Source: Hyphobacterium indicum | GTDB lineage: Bacteria > Pseudomonadota > Alphaproteobacteria > Caulobacterales > Maricaulaceae | Assembly: GCF_003129605.1 (NCBI RefSeq) | Contig: NZ_QBDX01000001.1 | Location: forward strand, 248,001-312,000 | Length of the DNA: 64,000 nt | Direction of reading: 5' to 3' | In this document: one piece after another, positions 3,188 to 42,009 of the stretch | Layout of the letters: each line of letters begins with the position of its first letter | How positions within the stretch are numbered: position 1 is the stretch's first letter | Notes under the pieces: model-generated | The model's input: only the letters and a program-made list of their open reading frames with translations | The model's database searches: none | Told to the model about the DNA's origin: nothing | Position numbers and translations under genes: made by a program

Positions 3188-4602
3188 GCCGGATTATTCT
3201 TCTTACCGCGCCGCATGTCAGCGAGGCTCTCGTTGCTGCAGTGAGGAAAAACCTTCCGGACCTGGAGCCGGTTCTGGTTTATGACCGGGGTGAATTCGAC
3301 GCAGCTGTGCAGGACCTTACGCCCAATGATTTCCTGCTCTCTTTCTGCACGAATGTGATCGTTCCCGCAGACGTCATTGGAACACTTGGCCCGCGGGCGA
3401 TCAACATCCATCCGGCGGCGCCGGACTATCCGGGCCGCGATCCTCATCATTTTGCCTTCATCGACGGGGTCAGGCGCTATGGTGCAACGGCCCACCGTAT
3501 GACGGAATCCGTTGATGCCGGGCCGATCTACGATATTGAATGGTTTGATGTGCCGGATGGCGCATCACCGCATGATATCATGCTTTTGGCAGACGAGGCG
3601 GGGCAGCGCCTCGCGGAACGGATATTTACCCGCCTTGGCTGCGGGGAGAGGCTGGAACCCAACGGGGTGGAATGGGGTCCGTGCAAGACGTCGCGTAACG
3701 ATTTCCGCCGTCTGTGCCGGATTTCACCGATCGCCTACAAGGCCGAATTTGATCGCCGGATGGCTGCCGTCGCCAATCCGGAATACCGGAATGCCTTCGT
3801 CGATCTGCACGGGCGAGTGTTCAGGGACACTGGCGAGACATTTCAACCGGTTCGGGTGAAAGCCTCCAAAGGCTGGGAGGACTTCACGGAAGCGGCCTAT
3901 TGCGAGATTCTGGATGCCGCGAAAGACCGTTATCGCTTCACCACTTATGACGACTTGCGCGACGACGATCATGTCCTGTGGCGTCACGACATCGACTATT
4001 CGGTCCATCGCGGGGTTCGCCTTGCCGAGCTGGAGGCCGAGCGCGGGCTTGTCGCGACCTATTTCTTCTGGATCCGCGCGCCCTACTACAATGTGCTGGA
4101 ACCGGCGATCAAAGCCTGTGCGGCGCGCCTGCTGGACTTGGGACATCGCATCGGCTTGCATTTCGACATCCAGGGATATGGCGACGAAAAGTGGACCTAC
4201 GAAAAGCTTGACGTCCGTATACGGCGAGAGGCCGACTTCCTTGGCGCGGAATTCAATACCAGAATCGGAGTCGTCAGTTTCCATGACCCGGAGAATGGCG
4301 GGCTTTTGAACTTTGATGCCGATCGCATAGGCGGGTTGGTCAACGCCTATGCCGCCCGTTTCAAGCGTGATTATGGCTATTGCTCGGATTCAAACGGCTA
4401 TTGGCGCTTCAAACCTATCCCTGAGGTCATCCGGTCGGGCGAATACCGCAAGCTCCAGGTCCTTACTCATCCGGCATGGTGGACCGGAGACATCATGTCG
4501 CCGCGGGAAAAGATCGAGCGCGCCGTTCTTGGACGCGCCCGTGCGACGATGGCCGAATATGACGACCATCTCACCCGGTCGGGCCGCACCAATCTGGACT
4601 AG
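3184..4602 (+). CDS. Fused formyltransferase-like / polysaccharide deacetylase-like protein
   Basis: 472 aa with two domains. Residues 1-180 resemble the formyltransferase fold of Fmt, ArnA-N and sugar N-formyltransferases. The triad can be placed as N74 and H76 (in INIHPA) and D111 (in SVDAGPIY). Residues about 240-472 look like a NodB-type deacetylase, with HDID (268-271) as the metal-binding Asp region and a later GLHFD. A plausible job is to deacetylate an N-acetyl group and N-formylate an amino sugar, but the order and substrate are inference. The last 57 or so codons recur as a remnant at 6507-6695. Separate versions of both domains lie immediately downstream on the other strand. Confidence 0.75.
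   Translation: MSRIILLTAPHVSEALVAAVRKNLPDLEPVLVYDRGEFDAAVQDLTPNDFLLSFCTNVIVPADVIGTLGPRAINIHPAAPDYPGRDPHHFAFIDGVRRYGATAHRMTESVDAGPIYDIEWFDVPDGASPHDIMLLADEAGQRLAERIFTRLGCGERLEPNGVEWGPCKTSRNDFRRLCRISPIAYKAEFDRRMAAVANPEYRNAFVDLHGRVFRDTGETFQPVRVKASKGWEDFTEAAYCEILDAAKDRYRFTTYDDLRDDDHVLWRHDIDYSVHRGVRLAELEAERGLVATYFFWIRAPYYNVLEPAIKACAARLLDLGHRIGLHFDIQGYGDEKWTYEKLDVRIRREADFLGAEFNTRIGVVSFHDPENGGLLNFDADRIGGLVNAYAARFKRDYGYCSDSNGYWRFKPIPEVIRSGEYRKLQVLTHPAWWTGDIMSPREKIERAVLGRARATMAEYDDHLTRSGRTNLD
4432..4602 (+). repeat. Direct repeat copy 1 (3' end of the fused gene)
   Basis: This 3' segment of the formyltransferase/deacetylase gene recurs in the same orientation at about 6522-6695. The longest shared runs include the part coding for MSPREKIERAVLGRARATMA. 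The two copies flank the leftward formyltransferase and deacetylase genes. Confidence 0.85.
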
Positions 4603-4605
4603 GCA

Positions 4606-5325
4606 TCAGCGATCAAAATGTCCCGCTTCGGCAAGGTCGACAACTTCGGTGAGGCTCTTGCTCTCGACGCCTGCATCGCTCATCGCCGTGCGCAGATCCT
4701 CATAGAAGGATCGCACACCATAGCCGGGCAGGGCGACATCCCACGGAGACGCGCCCGCCTGCAATTTGACCCGAACCTCCTTGTAATCATCATAGGATGT
4801 CGTGTTCAGAGCAACATGCAGTGGATGAATGTCAAACACTTTCAGCCCGTCCCCGTCGAAGGCGCGCTTGATCGTGTCCTTGCTCAGCGGTGTGTGATTG
4901 TCATTCGGCCAGTTATCCGGCCAGCACAGGTCCATATTATCCATGTAGTATATCGGCACTTCCCACACGCCCCAAGCCTCCTTGTAGGGCTTGATGTCCT
5001 GGCGGAAGAGCTGCGACGTCACGGAGACATACCGCAGACCGCAGCGGTGCGCCGCGCCGGAGACGATATGGGAGTACACGCAGGAATGTGTGCGCATCCC
5101 GGTGGCCGGAATGCCCAGCTCGTCGATGAATCTGCGTAACTTCCCCTCGGCGTCCGTCAGGTCGTCATAGAAGGGGTGGGGCTGAGCCTCGTGACCGCGC
5201 CAGTCCATGCCGGGATACGGCTTCCACAAAAAAAAGGTATCGGTTCCGGGACCCGAAAAATCATCAAGAAACCGCTCCATGCCTTCCGGGGACATGTAGT
5301 CGGTGTCGTGCGTCAGACAGATCAT
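4606..5325 (-). CDS. Polysaccharide deacetylase-like protein
   Basis: 239 aa starting MICLTHDTDYMSPEG. The HDTD motif near the N-terminus is the catalytic/metal Asp pair of NodB-type carbohydrate esterase folds. A C-terminal DIHPLH fits the distal metal or active-site region. No signal peptide is visible, so it probably acts on a cytoplasmic sugar nucleotide or lipid-linked sugar. Its start overlaps the stop of the upstream formyltransferase (ATGA overlap at 5322-5325), so the pair is coupled. It converges on the fused gene with a 3-base gap. Confidence 0.7.
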   Translation of the reverse strand: MICLTHDTDYMSPEGMERFLDDFSGPGTDTFFLWKPYPGMDWRGHEAQPHPFYDDLTDAEGKLRRFIDELGIPATGMRTHSCVYSHIVSGAAHRCGLRYVSVTSQLFRQDIKPYKEAWGVWEVPIYYMDNMDLCWPDNWPNDNHTPLSKDTIKRAFDGDGLKVFDIHPLHVALNTTSYDDYKEVRVKLQAGASPWDVALPGYGVRSFYEDLRTAMSDAGVESKSLTEVVDLAEAGHFDR

Positions 5326-36660: not shown

Positions 36661-38649
36661 ATGGTTGCCATGACGTCTCTTGATCTCAACACCCTGAAAC
36701 CCATGGCAAATGCCGTTCGCGCCCTGGCGATGGATGCGGTCGAAGCCGCCAATTCCGGCCATCCCGGCATGCCGATGGGCATGGCGGATGCCGCAACCGT
36801 CCTCTGGGCCCGCCATCTGAAGTTTGATCCGGCAGATCCCGACTGGCGTGACCGCGACCGCTTTGTCCTCTCGGCGGGGCATGGCTCCATGCTGATCTAT
36901 GCGCTGCTGCACCTCACCGGTTATGCCGATGTGACGCTGGACGAGATCAGAAACTTCCGCCAGCTCGGCTCGAAAACACCGGGCCACCCCGAATTCGGCC
37001 ACACCACCGGCGTCGAGACCACGACCGGGCCGCTGGGACAGGGCATTTCCACTGCGGTCGGCATGGCGCTGGCCGAACGCATTCTCAACGCCCGTTTTGG
37101 CGATGATCTTGTCGACCACCGCACATGGGTGATCGCCTCTGACGGTGATCTGCAGGAAGGGATCAGCCATGAAGCCATCTCGCTGGCCGGCCATCTCGGG
37201 CTCAAACGCCTCACTGTCCTGTGGGACAATAATTCCATCCAGATCGATGGCGATACGGCGCTGGCCGAGACCTCTGACGTGCTCAAACGCTTTGAAGCGG
37301 CCGGCTGGGCCACCGATGCCGTGGACGGTCATGACATGGAAGCGGTCGATGCCGCGCTCGCCCGCGCCAAAACCTCTGACAAGCCGGTCCTGATTTCCTG
37401 CAAGACAGTGATCGGGTTCGGAGCCCCCACCAAGGCCGGCAAGGCCTCCAGTCATGGTTCGCCGCTGGGCGGTGACGAGCTGGCCGGGGCCAAACAGGCG
37501 CTGGGCTGGCCGCATATCGCGTTCGACATCCCTGAAGAGATCCGCGCCAACTGGACCGCCGTCGCCGAAGGCGGAGCCATCGCACGGAAAGCCTGGGAAG
37601 GACGTTACAGCAACACGTCACGGCGCGAGGAATTCGATGCCGCCTTCAAGACCGGCCTGCCGGTCAAGGCCGCCCGCAAACTGGCTGACTGGCGCCGTGA
37701 AGTGGCGGCCGAAAAGCCGAATCTCGCCAGCCGCGCCTCTTCGGGCCGGGTTCTGGAGCAGATTGTGCCCGTCATGCCGGAGCTGGTCGGCGGCTCGGCG
37801 GACCTCACCGGCTCCAACCTCACCAAGACACCGGATCAATCGCCCATTCAGGCCGGCGATTATGGCGGCCAGTATATCTATTACGGGGTTCGCGAGCACG
37901 GCATGGCGGCGTGCGCGAACGGCCTGTCCCTGCACGGCGGTGTGCGGCCCTATATCGGCACCTTCCTGGTCTTTGCCGATTACTGCCGTCCGGCCATCCG
38001 TCTCGCGGCGCTGATGAATCAGCCCGTGACCTATGTGTTCACCCACGATTCCATCGGCCTTGGCGAGGATGGACCCACCCACCAGCCGGTCGAGCATCTC
38101 GCCTCCTTGCGGGCCATGCCCAATGTCCGCGTCTTCCGTCCGGCCGATGCAATGGAGACCGCGGAAAGCTGGGAGCTGGCCCTGTCCCACCAGACCGGAC
38201 CAACGCTTCTGGCACTGTCACGGCAGAAACTGCCCTTTGCGCGGCAGGATGACGGGTCGGAAAACCTGTCGGCGCGCGGGGCCTATGTGCTGCGCGACGC
38301 CGAGGCGGCAAAGGCCGTGATCATTGCGACCGGCTCGGAAATCGGTATTGCCCTTGAAGCGGCGGACATTCTGGCCGGGAAGCAGATTCCGGTTCGTGTT
38401 GTCTCTGCGCCTTGCGTGGAAATCTTCCTCGAGCAGGACCGCGCCTATCAGGACAGCGTGTTGCCGGAGGGATTGCCGCGCATCGCGGTCGAGGCCGGAC
38501 TGCGCTATGGCTGGGACGCCCTTATCGGCCGCGAGGGCGGCTTTGTCGGCATGACCGGCTTTGGCGCTTCGGCCCCTGCCGAAGCACTCTACGAGCACTT
38601 CGGCATCACCGCGGACAACATTGTCAAAGAGGTGCTGGAGCGCGTCTAG
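36661..38649 (+). CDS. tkt: Transketolase
   Basis: 662 aa, full length. Thiamine-diphosphate motifs are in place: [52 protein letters not shown] with the GDG-type metal loop, and the pyrimidine domain with [11 protein letters not shown] and [19 protein letters not shown]. It works in the pentose phosphate pathway (and Calvin-type cycles where present). The start could be 9 bases later (MTSLDLNT). It converges on the JmjC gene with shared CTAG stops. Confidence 0.96.
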
Positions 38650-39833
38650 CCGACCCGCTCGATCACGCCATAGCCGAAGAGCTGGTTCAGCGCCTTCTGG
38701 GCCTCTTCCTCTCCCGCCGCCTCGAAGGCGGAGAGGTTGAACACTTCGCCATCCAGCACCTTGTCGAGCCCGGCTTCAGCCGCGGACGGGAAGATCAGTT
38801 CACCGCCTGCCGTGATCAGCACAAGCCGGTCCTCATCCTCTGCCAGCCGCCAGGGAATGTCGGGGCGAATCCGGAATTTCGCACCCGGCGTTGTCGCCGC
38901 ACCCCGGCCGGTAATGGCGCCTTCGGAATAGGGCGGCCGCGAGCGGATGAAATTGTCGACAAACAGGTCGAAGGCATTCTCGAGATTGGCTTCTTCGGCA
39001 ATGATTTTGACCAGTGAGTTGAAATGCGCCTCGGCCTGCGCCCGGTCATAATCGGCCCGCGCATAACCGGGCGGCAGCGACTGCCGGAATTCGGGATGCC
39101 GCAAGGCGACTTCGGACACGGCTTCCAGCATGAGATCGGCCCAGGTTTTCACAATCATGCCAACCGTGATGTGCAGGCTGTCGGCCGAGCCCTGTGCCTG
39201 CGCATCATGCATCAGGCCGCGCGGAACATAGGCGCAATCGCCCGCCTTGAGGACGAATTCCTCGACCAGTTCCCCGGGCTGGACATGATCCGGATTGAAG
39301 CCTTCGCCGCGATAGGGCTTGTCGACCGATTGATCATAGAGCCGCCACAGCTTCTCGCCTTCGACCTGGAGCACGAAGACATCATGGTCATCATAATGGG
39401 TCCGGAAGCCCTGATTGTTCGGCGGCGTCAGATAGATATTGGTCTGCACATGGCTGGTGAAGATTGATTCCATCGCCCGGCAGAAACTTTTCAGCCCCAG
39501 ATCGGCCTGGTGCAGATGCGGCAGGATCAGCGTGCCGCCTTCCTGGTAGAGATTGGCGATTGCGCCGCGGTCCGCATATCCGTTCGAGAGCAGGAACTGG
39601 TCGCGCGTGATCGGAGGATCGGCACGGGCCATATCGACATCATCGCCATGGAAATCGCGGCTGGCGAGCAGCGTATCGATCCGCGCGACCGACAACAGCT
39701 CCTTGTAGCGGTCCGGCTCGTTGCGCGAAACGATCAGCGCCTTTTGCTCGAAATAGCTCTTGAAGAAGTCCTCAGACCCGTTCGGGCCGATGCAGTAATC
39801 CAGAACGTCGCGTCCCCAAGGGTGGTCAGCCAT
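38646..39833 (-). CDS. JmjC-domain oxygenase (ribosomal oxygenase/YcfD-like)
   Basis: 395 aa from ATG 39833 (GGGGAC upstream). The 2-oxoglutarate/Fe(II) facial triad is H146 and D148 (THYDDHDVF) with H209 (PRGLMHDA). The N-terminal [20 protein letters not shown] fits the ROXY family opening, where W/F-K-K-P-L-x-I precedes the cupin. The C-terminal part is a winged-helix-like domain. E. coli YcfD hydroxylates an Arg of ribosomal protein uL16; a ribosomal substrate is likely here but not proven. Confidence 0.85.
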
Positions 39834-40068
39834 ATTGTCCCCACGCATTTGATGATGTCGCAGAGCGGTTGCGCGGCGACTTTGTTCCAGTGAAATCAGG
39901 AATGAAGCAACTGTCCAGCGATGATTGCGGAAAATAGCGCAGCCAGAGGACATTGGCGTCGATTGGCCGCATCATCACCCATTCCGGAGCCTGCGGCCGG
40001 GCATTGCGCGCAATTGACCGGCCCGGAGACCGGCCAACTCGCGCGTCATAAGAGCGGAAATGCCGGTC
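39834..40068. other. Intergenic region between the repeat genes and the JmjC gene
   Basis: 235 bases. It holds the JmjC ribosome site and presumably promoter. A GC-rich imperfect hairpin near 40005-40040 follows the end of the leftward repeat gene but has no T-run. I see no ORF or RNA gene. Confidence 0.35.
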
Positions 40069-40542
40069 CTAGCAGCGCCGGCCACGGCCGATCGGATCGG
40101 CATAGGTCCCGGTATCGCTATCTGTGCAATTGCGGCGGCGTCCACCCCGGCCATTGCCGACAGGATCGGCATAAGTGCCCGTATCGCTGTCGGTGATGCC
40201 GGATGTCCGCCCGCGCCCGCCGCGGCCATTGCCGACCGGATCAGCGTAGCTGCCGGTATCATTATCGGTAATACCCGATGTGCGCCGGCCGCGTCCGCCA
40301 CGGCCATTGCCCGCCGGATCCGCGTAGGGACCGGTATCACTGTCGGTGATACCGGTATTGCGGCGCCCGCCCCGCCCGTATCCGGCGGGGTCGGCATAGG
40401 CCCCGATATCGGCATCAGTGATGCCGGTATAAGCGCCGGTAGTGGTGCAGCCTGTGACCAGACCGGCAGCACCGGTCGCCAGCCCGGCCCCCGCGACTTT
40501 CGTCAGAAAGGACCGGCGGCTGAGTTTGGACTTCCTTGCCAT
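40069..40542 (-). CDS. Tat-exported lipoprotein made of TDSD repeats (repeat protein A)
   Basis: 157 aa. The N-terminus KSKLSRRSFLTKVAGAGLAT is a twin-arginine signal (SRRSFL), and VTGC (29-32) is a lipobox, so it should be a Tat-dependent lipoprotein. From residue 39 to the end it is five repeats of about 23 residues of the type TDSDTGxYADPxGNGRGGR, ending in GRGRRC. The core has Asp at positions 1, 3 and 9 of DxDxGxxxD, like a calcium-binding loop. It is the second gene of a leftward pair, 39 bases after repeat protein B. I recognise no family with known function. Confidence 0.75.
   Translation of the reverse strand: MARKSKLSRRSFLTKVAGAGLATGAAGLVTGCTTTGAYTGITDADIGAYADPAGYGRGGRRNTGITDSDTGPYADPAGNGRGGRGRRTSGITDNDTGSYADPVGNGRGGRGRTSGITDSDTGTYADPVGNGRGGRRRNCTDSDTGTYADPIGRGRRC
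40072..40428 (-). repeat. Five tandem coding repeats (about 70 bases each)
   Basis: Five units coding for the TDSDxGxxADPxGxGR motif in repeat protein A. Middle units are close to one another in DNA; the first (TDADIGAYADPAGYGR) and last (TDSDTGTYADPIGRGR) differ most, the usual pattern of repeats copied in the middle of an array. Confidence 0.85.
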
Positions 40543-40581
40543 GTCATACTCCTCGCCGGCACGTTGTCCGGCATCAATTGG

Positions 40582-41157
40582 TTAACAGCGGCGGCCCCGT
40601 CCGATCGGGTCGGAATAAGTGCCGGTATCGCTGTCGGTGCAGCGGCGTCTGCCGCGGCCATTGCCCACCGGGTCGGCATAGGTACCGGTATCGCTATCGG
40701 TGAGGCCTGTCCGGCGGTTGCCGCGTCCGTTTCCGGCCGGATCGGCATTGCGCCCGCTGTCGCTGTCAGTGATACCCGACCGGCGGCTGCCCCGGCCATT
40801 CCCCGCAGGATCGGCATAGGCCCCTGTATCGCTGTCGGTAAGGCCCGTCCGGCGGCTGCCCCGGCCATTTCCAGCCGGATCGGCATAGGCCCCGGAATCA
40901 CTGTCGGTAATGCCGGAATTACGCCGCCCACGGCCATATCCGGCGCGGTCGGCATTGCTGCCACCATCGCTGTCGGTAACGCCGGTGCGTCCATATCCCG
41001 CGCGGTCCGCATAACTGCCGCTGTCGGAATCGGTCCGTCCGGTGTAATTCTGCGCGAGTGCATTGCCGGTAACGGTTCCGGCAGCACCGAGCGCGACACT
41101 GGCACCTGCCACGCGCGTCAGGAATGAGCGCCGGCTGAGCTTACCCTTTTTGGCCAT
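40582..41157 (-). CDS. Tat-exported protein made of TDSD repeats (repeat protein B)
   Basis: 191 aa. The twin-arginine signal KGKLSRRSFLTRVAGASVAL matches that of repeat protein A, but here it ends in a normal signal peptidase site (NALAQ, cut near 35), so the protein is soluble after export. Seven repeats follow, from TDSDSGSYADRAGYGR to TDSDTGTYSDPIGRGR, with a terminal RRC. The single Cys residues lie just before and at the end of the last repeat (CTDSD, RRC), as in protein A. The first gene of the leftward pair. Function unknown; metal binding or a peptide-precursor role are ideas only. Confidence 0.75.
   Translation of the reverse strand: MAKKGKLSRRSFLTRVAGASVALGAAGTVTGNALAQNYTGRTDSDSGSYADRAGYGRTGVTDSDGGSNADRAGYGRGRRNSGITDSDSGAYADPAGNGRGSRRTGLTDSDTGAYADPAGNGRGSRRSGITDSDSGRNADPAGNGRGNRRTGLTDSDTGTYADPVGNGRGRRRCTDSDTGTYSDPIGRGRRC
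40585..41043 (-). repeat. Seven tandem coding repeats (about 66-70 bases each)
   Basis: Seven units coding for the TDSDxGxxADPxGxGR motif in repeat protein B. Units alternate SGITDSD and TGLTDSD in the middle, which suggests that two-unit blocks were duplicated. Confidence 0.85.
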
Positions 41158-41365
41158 GATCCGGCCTCCCTGTTGTCTGTCATCCGGACGATGCCGGGTC
41201 CCTCGCCGGATAATGTTAGTCCTGTGGAGGCCGCGGCGTCAAACGCTAACAAGCCATTTTCTTAAATATATCGGCAATTTAGACTGAAATTTATAAGATT
41301 GAAAATCAGTCGCACGAAATGCAGGGGGGCTCGCAGGGCAGTATTCGCGTAACAAGGGCCGGGCA
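41158..41365. promoter_or_regulatory. Upstream region of the repeat A/B gene pair
   Basis: This region includes the AT-rich stretch at about 41255-41310 that probably holds the leftward promoter of the two-gene unit. No Fur-box-like palindrome is seen here, unlike upstream of repeat protein C. Confidence 0.35.
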
Positions 41366-41366
41366 C

Positions 41367-41399
41367 AAAAAAAACCGGCGGCCCGAAAGCCGCCGGTTT
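41367..41399 (-). terminator. Rho-independent terminator of repeat gene C
   Basis: Read leftward, CCGGCGGC (41375-41382 on the plus strand) pairs with GCCGCCGG (41389-41396) around a 6-base loop, extended by AAA/TTT, and is followed by a run of eight T in the transcript. It closes repeat gene C, so C is transcribed separately from A and B. Confidence 0.9.
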
Positions 41400-41423
41400 C
41401 ACTGTATCACTGGATTGGGACGA

Positions 41424-41777
41424 CTAGCCGCCGCGGCCACGTCCTGCCGGATCCGAACAACCGGATGTGTCGCTGTCGGTATAGCCGGAATTGCCACGGC
41501 CATGCCCGGCATTGTCGGCGCAGCCACCGGTATCGCTGTCGGTGTAACCGGTATAGCCGGTACCGCGGCCAGCCTGGTCGGCGTAGGAGCCGCTGTCATT
41601 GTCGGTGATGCCGGTGCGGCCATTGCCTGCCGGATCCGAATTGCCACCGCTGTCGGAATCGGTACGGCCACGGATCATGGTGGCACCTGCGACGGCACCA
41701 ACGGCGCCGGTGATGGCGACGCCACCAACAACGCGTGTCATGAAGGAACGGCGGCTGAGTTTACCTTTTTTGGCCAT
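41424..41777 (-). CDS. Tat-exported protein made of TDSD repeats (repeat protein C)
   Basis: 117 aa. The twin-arginine signal KGKLSRRSFMTRVVGGVAI is close to those of A and B; it lacks an obvious lipobox and may be cut after a later Ala or stay as an anchor. Four repeats follow: TDSDSGGNSDPAGNGR, TDNDSGSYADQAGRG, TDSDTGGCADNAGHGR and TDSDTSGCSDPAGRGR. Two repeats carry Cys. It has its own terminator, and three Fur-box-like sites lie 125-230 bases upstream, so it may be iron-regulated. Function unknown. Confidence 0.75.
   Translation of the reverse strand: MAKKGKLSRRSFMTRVVGGVAITGAVGAVAGATMIRGRTDSDSGGNSDPAGNGRTGITDNDSGSYADQAGRGTGYTGYTDSDTGGCADNAGHGRGNSGYTDSDTSGCSDPAGRGRGG
41427..41669 (-). 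repeat. Four tandem coding repeats of repeat protein C
   Basis: Four units of the TDSDxGxxxDxAGxGR motif. They are more diverged from each other than the units in genes A and B. Confidence 0.8.
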
Positions 41778-41900: not shown

Positions 41901-41915
41901 TGATAGTCATTCTCA
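41901..41915. promoter_or_regulatory. Fur-box-like site 1
   Basis: TGATAGTCATTCTCA, which differs from site 3 at one base. It fits 11 or more positions of the classic TGATAATnATTATCA core. It is the site nearest to repeat gene C. Confidence 0.6.
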
Positions 41916-41961: not shown

Positions 41962-41976
41962 TGATAATCATTATCA
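41962..41976. promoter_or_regulatory. Fur-box-like site 2 (perfect palindrome)
   Basis: TGATAATCATTATCA is a perfect 7-1-7 inverted repeat and an exact match to the classic ferric-uptake-regulator core. It lies between repeat gene C (leftward) and ruvC (rightward). Confidence 0.8.
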
Positions 41977-41994: not shown

Positions 41995-42009
41995 TGATAC
42001 TCATTCTCA
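41995..42009. promoter_or_regulatory. Fur-box-like site 3
   Basis: TGATACTCATTCTCA is almost the same as site 1. Three sites within 110 bases suggest cooperative binding. The site is 65 bases before the ruvC start, so an effect on ruvC cannot be excluded. Confidence 0.6.

Follow-up and report, generated by a model that had tools for sequence, protein, structure and literature searches.

The window, i.e. the whole stretch of 64,000 nucleotides of Hyphobacterium indicum DNA that was analysed, contains three neighbouring genes for Tat-type repeat proteins (A, B and C), which are followed by a gene for a JmjC_2 oxygenase and preceded by Fur-box-like sequences (Table 1). We consider it slightly more probable than improbable that these genes encode a system in which RiPP-like repeat proteins are modified by the oxygenase, exported via Tat, controlled by iron and able to bind ferric iron. 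In the proposed mechanism Fur would leave its operators when iron is scarce, such that the operon becomes derepressed. The cytoplasmic oxygenase, using Fe(II), 2-oxoglutarate and O2, would hydroxylate a residue of every repeat. The beta-carbon of a near-invariant Asp is the most likely site, at one or more of the positions D1, D3 and D9 of TDxDxGxxxD. The modified proteins would leave via Tat, some of them soluble (AxA site) and some lipid-anchored (lipobox), and outside the cytoplasm the clusters of beta-hydroxy-Asp and Asp would bind ferric iron. A product of the ribosome would thereby buffer iron, shuttle it or chelate it in the manner of a siderophore. The precursor would thus be RiPP-like, carrying multiple repeats and being exported by Tat. 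The single parts of this proposal differ in strength: the repeat proteins are very probably the substrates of the adjoining oxygenase, hydroxylation of the repeats is likely, Asp is on balance the expected target and iron is a plausible ligand.

Table 1. Positions of genes and predicted control elements within the window.
Feature	Position	Strand	Description
Gene A	41424..41777	-	Tat-type signal and 4 repeats, 117 aa; Cys within repeats 3 and 4
Gene B	40582..41157	-	Tat-type signal with AxA cleavage site and 7 repeats, 191 aa; C-terminus RRC
Gene C	40069..40542	-	Tat-type signal with lipobox, predicted lipoprotein, and 5 repeats, 157 aa; C-terminus RRC
JmjC_2 (PF08007) Fe(II)/2OG oxygenase	38646..39833	-	Next gene downstream of C; Pfam E 1.5e-30
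Fur-box-like operator TGATAATCATTATCA	41962..41976	.	0 mismatches to TGMKAATNATTMKCA
Fur-box-like operator TGATACTCATTCTCA	41995..42009	.	1 mismatch
Fur-box-like operator TGATAGTCATTCTCA	41901..41915	.	1 mismatch
Weak candidate Fur-like site upstream of B	41300..41314	.	2 mismatches by eye; near sigma-70-like match 41242-41213
Intrinsic terminator hairpin directly after A	41371..41400	-	T-rich tail; z -5.1

Three leftward Tat-type genes had originally been predicted at 40069-41777, and their positions and strand hold. A regular-expression count of the motif T-D-x-D-x-G/S-x3-D-x2-G-x-G-R/T agreed with the predicted 5, 7 and 4 copies in C, B and A, respectively, while shuffled proteins of the composition of B yielded on average 0.0007 matches per protein compared to the 7 of B itself. 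The predicted unit length of 23 residues is the most frequent spacing in B but only approximate, since spacings range from 19 to 26 residues. Also correct were the assignments of one predicted lipoprotein (C, lipobox VTGC at the end of its signal), one protein predicted to be cleaved (B) and one protein with Cys inside the repeats (A), as well as the RRC ends of B and C. By pattern, the signals of A, B and C consist of KLSRRSFL/M and a hydrophobic stretch, with the signal of B ending in an AxA site (NALA, followed by QN). The NCBIfam model TIGR01409 placed B alone above its cut-off (16.9 vs 16.7 bits), A and C lying slightly below. From the RR signal and the hydrophobic stretch the repeat proteins are predicted Tat substrates. 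Comparison of the window with three relatives gave dN/dS values of at most 0.051 for A, 0.08-0.12 for B and 0.07-0.09 for C, the range over A, B, C and the neighbouring oxygenase gene being 0-0.12 with synonymous changes far in excess of amino-acid changes. Judged from these low ratios, A, B and C are real, constrained proteins under strong purifying selection. Searches of viral contigs and plasmids returned no match to the repeats, such that a phage or plasmid origin is unsupported.

Several features were absent from the original prediction: the JmjC gene downstream, the terminator that follows A, the Fur-like boxes and a fourth copy of the repeat gene, which lies on the same contig as A-C (G000:C1:510.8-511.3 kb). 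This fourth gene (G000:C1:510824-511276, L002/L022; relatives L084, L085 and L088) is unlinked to the oxygenase, adjoins in the genus a gene for a DUF418/HGSNAT-like membrane acyltransferase and has no Fur-like box.

Relatives of the repeat genes were found at 73 loci in public genomes, covering Maricaulales, Caulobacterales (Brevundimonas, Peiella), Sphingomonadales (Aurantiacibacter, Parasphingopyxis, Sphingosinicella), Myxococcota and others. Whether a Tat signal always accompanies the repeat could be answered with proteins collected by the repeat alone: a Tat-type signal was present by pattern in all 129 of the 129 distinct proteins. A lipobox occurs in 44 of the 150 proteins (~30%) of an extended set, which was gathered with a Tat filter and is therefore no independent test of the Tat association. 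The 752 full-type units have the consensus T-D-S-D-[S/T]-G-x-[Y/N]-A-D-P-[A/V]-G-x-G-R-G with conservation of 99% for D9, 96% for G12, 99% for G14 and 90% for R15; T0, D1, D3 and G5 served to find or sort the units, such that their conservation is not independent. A short unit form reads TDSDPxD, with TDSDPYDP in the short Maricaulis repeats. The repeats are rich in Arg, which is about as frequent as Asp, and in one lineage (L100) the Asp and Gly residues are kept with Arg being absent. In Rhodobacterales-like loci (L168-L171) the Tat-type proteins are short, comprise two repeat units and end in GRG..C, e.g. GRGAPYC; one to three copies of their genes lie beside the oxygenase gene and are divergently transcribed.

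By its PF08007 domain and its HxD...H metal triad the protein encoded next to the repeats is classified as a JmjC_2 Fe(II)/2OG oxygenase. The triad residues H186, D188 and H249 are invariant in an alignment of 18 relatives. The open reading frame could begin at 39953; residues 1-40 are predicted to be disordered and the relatives begin at the later Met. By sequence the nearest proteins are NO66/MINA53 (NO66 E 2e-35) and by fold NO66 (Foldseek TM 0.68-0.71), NO66 and MINA53 being the closest solved structures. In the AlphaFold2 model of the oxygenase (pLDDT 86.7), the C-terminal part is predicted to have a three-strand, three-helix order, the same order as described for RREs. In a tree built with alphaproteobacterial JmjC_2 proteins, rather than characterised ribosomal oxygenases (ROX), as comparison, 36 repeat-linked oxygenases formed a supported clade. 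It is nested in a larger clade from which the remaining JmjC_2 proteins of Alphaproteobacteria, which are not repeat-linked, are separate. Six tree rows (L098, L104, L115, L168-L170) carry the label 'no' although repeat genes adjoin, as the label missed cases due to orientation or motif strictness.

The association of both genes extends far beyond the window. In most loci, and in nearly all genome-collection loci that carry JmjC, the oxygenase gene lies directly 3' of a repeat gene with the same orientation and a gap of mostly 3-185 bp, and relatives of the oxygenase adjoin repeat genes in Maricaulales, Caulobacterales, Sphingomonadales, Myxococcota and other groups. The JmjC gene is the only neighbour that recurs across lineages: outside the syntenic ruvCAB/transketolase region of Maricaulales no further conserved neighbours were found. 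The pair thus lacks a conserved neighbour of the TonB receptor, exporter or protease kind, which speaks against the model. Of 289 alphaproteobacterial genomes drawn evenly, 10 encode the oxygenase clade and 9 the repeats, all 9 being among these 10 (Fisher p about 3e-16). Members of the clade scored 421-591 bits in this draw, the next JmjC protein only 190 bits. Repeat genes without an adjoining oxygenase gene were found in 15 genomes. As 14 of these 15 encode a clade member elsewhere (466-561 bits), the oxygenase can, as far as gene content tells, act in trans on the repeat proteins. Among the matches listed, no obvious replacement enzyme was seen at the repeat loci devoid of JmjC. One relative of the oxygenase (L116) has no repeat gene beside it. 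At the locus a ribosomal precursor is encoded beside an enzyme of modifying type, which is a criterion for RiPPs.

Upstream of the operon three putative operators match a Fur-box-like palindrome. Across the family, 26 of 52 operons have TGMKAATNATTMKCA with at most 2 mismatches in their upstream region, compared to only 0.7% of random 350-bp windows, an enrichment whose exact value is optimistic because the motif was written after viewing the upstream sequences. Scanning the genome (2.79 Mb) with at most 1 mismatch returned 11 sites, 3 of which precede this operon, while a reversed-pattern control over the whole 2.79 Mb genome at the same threshold returned none. Other sites adjoin two receptor genes, one for a heme-type TonB receptor and one for a FecA-like receptor, and the gene for a ferric-binding protein that matches FutA/FbpA structures (E 1.4e-90). 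The genome encodes three Fur-family proteins as well as TatC. With three predicted operators whose motif is common to the iron-uptake genes of the genome, the operon would be a member of the Fur regulon. In about half of the operons, including many from Sphingomonadales and Myxococcota, no Fur-like site was found, nor in the Rhodobacterales-like loci; iron control may therefore be lineage-specific. One Fur-like site of the genome (L178, G000:C1:487983) is flanked by a gene for a heme-type TonB receptor on one side and one for a DUF6607 protein on the other, which suggests an iron- or heme-related role of DUF6607. With the terminator lying directly behind its gene, A is probably produced in larger amounts than B, C and the oxygenase. 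Equivalent hairpins fold in three relatives (L034, L035 and L041), where in L041 the stem bases have changed yet remain complementary. Such a conserved terminator between A and B-C-JmjC suggests graded expression.

The choice of Asp as hydroxylation target has points on both sides. The nearest characterised enzymes hydroxylate His (NO66, MINA53) or Arg (YcfD) and none of them is an Asp hydroxylase; neither was an Asp-specific JmjC hydroxylase found among the structural neighbours of the window oxygenase. Three points would still favour Asp over Arg, Pro and Gly: among the reactive residues it is the most conserved, it is kept in the Arg-less L100 lineage as well as in a Streptomyces peptide (see below), and siderophores are known to bind Fe(III) through beta-hydroxy-Asp (PMC12628792, PMC10484230). 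An Arg content that about equals that of Asp would be unusual for a cation chelator. Regarding the export route, folding or metal loading before transport, as originally predicted, is a possible reason for Tat; the need for a cytoplasmic oxygenase to act before export would be a simpler one. Taken in its most specific form, as a ribosomal multi-valent iron chelator whose Asp residues are beta-hydroxylated by a dedicated JmjC enzyme and which is Tat-exported under Fur control, the chelator would be the protein equivalent of beta-hydroxyaspartate siderophores and would occur in Myxococcota as well as several alphaproteobacterial orders. In this form the proposal is tentative, and we rate it as possible but somewhat short of probable.

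Divergent relatives fit the view that the oxygenase acts on peptide substrates, as in the favoured model. Many repeat proteins outside Maricaulales, Caulobacterales and Sphingomonadales possess an N-terminal extension, on which a candidate leader motif, [T/S]Lxx[D/E]xI, precedes the Tat signal in 16 divergent loci; the motif is absent from the lineage of the window, a point against the model. A JmjC protein from Streptomyces clavuligerus is 37% identical to that of the Rhodobacterales-like L170, and its gene is preceded by one for a 48-aa peptide, MDDKKTSLEPDEIEV...ADNDPSDPPIAIADPDPFDPVI, with the same N-terminal motif (SLEPDEI) and two DxDPxDP units but no Tat signal. The short Maricaulis repeats contain DxDPxDP too. 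Both genes lie on a plasmid (L184:3781-3927 for the peptide and 4019-5176 for JmjC) and possibly form a minimal RiPP pair. Within the larger oxygenase clade two members (L172, L186) adjoin genes of LanM type (DUF4135) and one (L187) a radical SAM gene, these being possible uncharacterised RiPP clusters. Fusions of PF08007 JmjC proteins to RRE-like domains have been described, as have their bacterial homologs in contexts resembling those of RiPPs (PMC12710340), and the JmjC enzyme BpmG hydroxylates Orn in a RiPP (PMC12257519).

Alternatively, the repeat proteins might be multi-core precursors that are hydroxylated, exported and cut by a protease at the G-R-G/R-R linkers to release many small peptides acting as siderophores or signals. 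Nearly identical repeats with Arg-rich linkers in between, the short single Streptomyces peptide with its similar core and the RiPP-like surroundings of oxygenase relatives would fit this explanation. However, neither a protease nor an exporter is conserved beside the pair, the frequent lipobox suits a retained protein, and Tat delivers to the periplasm rather than to the outside, such that we regard it as unlikely. Multi-core precursors had been among the options of the original prediction, as had metal-binding envelope proteins; both pointed in the right direction, the evidence being the Fur-like operators and the paired oxygenase of peptide-modifying type and not the likeness to calcium loops. 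A similarly low probability is assigned to repeats that are modified for a purpose other than iron chelation, for instance binding of Ca, Cu or Zn instead, a structural role or protection from iron or oxidative stress. The operons devoid of a detectable Fur-like box agree with such a purpose, and so do the Arg and occasional Cys residues of the repeats and the resemblance of their loops to generic acidic metal loops. Where Fur-like boxes are present, however, they lie far above background and are common to iron-uptake genes of the same genome.

Much less probable are unmodified Ca-binding repeat proteins or adhesins with the JmjC gene as a passenger. The resemblance of DxDxGxxxD to calcium loops, stated in the original prediction, is real, but the repeat is not an EF-hand or dockerin loop: position 5, which holds a ligand in those loops, is occupied by Gly and position 4 by Ser/Thr. 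An EF-hand/dockerin Ca repeat was thus rejected, the repeat being DxD[S/T]GxxxD rather than of the DxDxDG type and the Pfam search with the repeats returning no family at E <= 1. Beyond Tat-signal models, searches of Pfam, NCBIfam and PDB gave one marginal PDB match, a hookworm secreted protein (E 2e-4; best single stretch E 0.025), which is not a convincing relative; the AlphaFold2 model of the repeats, in which no fold was predicted (pLDDT 35), was uninformative. A passenger gene is also hard to reconcile with a pair that is retained in different phyla and whose members occur in the same genomes even where they are not neighbours, and no evidence supports the surface adhesins once considered. 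That the enzyme is an ordinary ribosomal oxygenase beside unrelated repeat genes, as its closest solved structures, both ribosomal-protein hydroxylases, might suggest, is hardly credible given that its clade stands apart from the non-repeat-linked JmjC_2 proteins of the class and is nearly confined to genomes with repeats.

The favoured reading, oxygenase-modified and Tat-exported iron-binding repeat proteins, can be compared with several known systems. With NO66/MINA53, YcfD and FIH the window oxygenase shares the fold and the metal/2OG residues, whereas it belongs to a separate clade and would act on an exported substrate. FIH hydroxylates Asn, Asp and His of ankyrin repeats and is thus a JmjC enzyme acting on many repeats per protein. 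Siderophores with beta-hydroxyaspartate are nonribosomal lipopeptides. They have in common with the present proposal beta-hydroxy-Asp as the proposed Fe(III) ligand group (cupriachelin, PMC10484230; cyanochelin B, PMC12628792; potashchelins, PMC7100376) but are small and secreted, in contrast to ribosomal proteins here. The Caulobacter CciT-CciO system couples a Fur-regulated TonB receptor to a 2OG dioxygenase (PMC11870441). Here too an iron-acquisition system depends on a cytoplasmic Fe(II) dioxygenase under Fur regulation, the partner being a TonB receptor instead of a repeat protein, and the paper mentions neither JmjC nor twin-arginine.

Bufferins are MNIO-modified, Sec-exported copper-binding RiPPs (PMC12452194). 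They resemble the system proposed here in their signal-peptide precursor, cytoplasmic modification by an iron oxidase, export and proposed metal binding, and differ from it by MNIO (DUF692), Cys modification, Sec and copper as opposed to JmjC, Asp-rich repeats, Tat-type signals and Fur-like control. Identity with bufferins was rejected, as the neighbour is JmjC_2, no other gene recurs and the signals are of Tat type; the main text of the bufferin paper mentions neither Tat nor JmjC. In the biphenomycin pathways BpmG and PbsQ are JmjC/cupin hydroxylases (PMC12257519). Such JmjC/cupin RiPP pathways (PMC12257519, PMC12710340) also place a JmjC-fold oxygenase gene beside a presumed ribosomal peptide substrate, in line with the LanM and radical-SAM contexts of the window oxygenase relatives. 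The locus described here differs by its single enzyme, a protein-sized multi-repeat substrate, the Tat-type signal and the Fur-like boxes, with the modification being predicted.

Among open-licence full texts, none was found that describes the repeat family or the repeat-oxygenase pair. The logic of the pairing is already known from bufferins and from JmjC enzymes in RiPP clusters; new are the type of substrate, the export route and the apparent metal. If the model is true, a bacterial iron binder would be a ribosomal repeat protein finished by one oxygenase, and RiPP chemistry, JmjC peptide hydroxylases and iron acquisition would be joined. Export by Tat would then have a simple reason, as the cytoplasmic modification must precede it, and substrates would be predicted for a whole clade of JmjC enzymes that so far have no known target.
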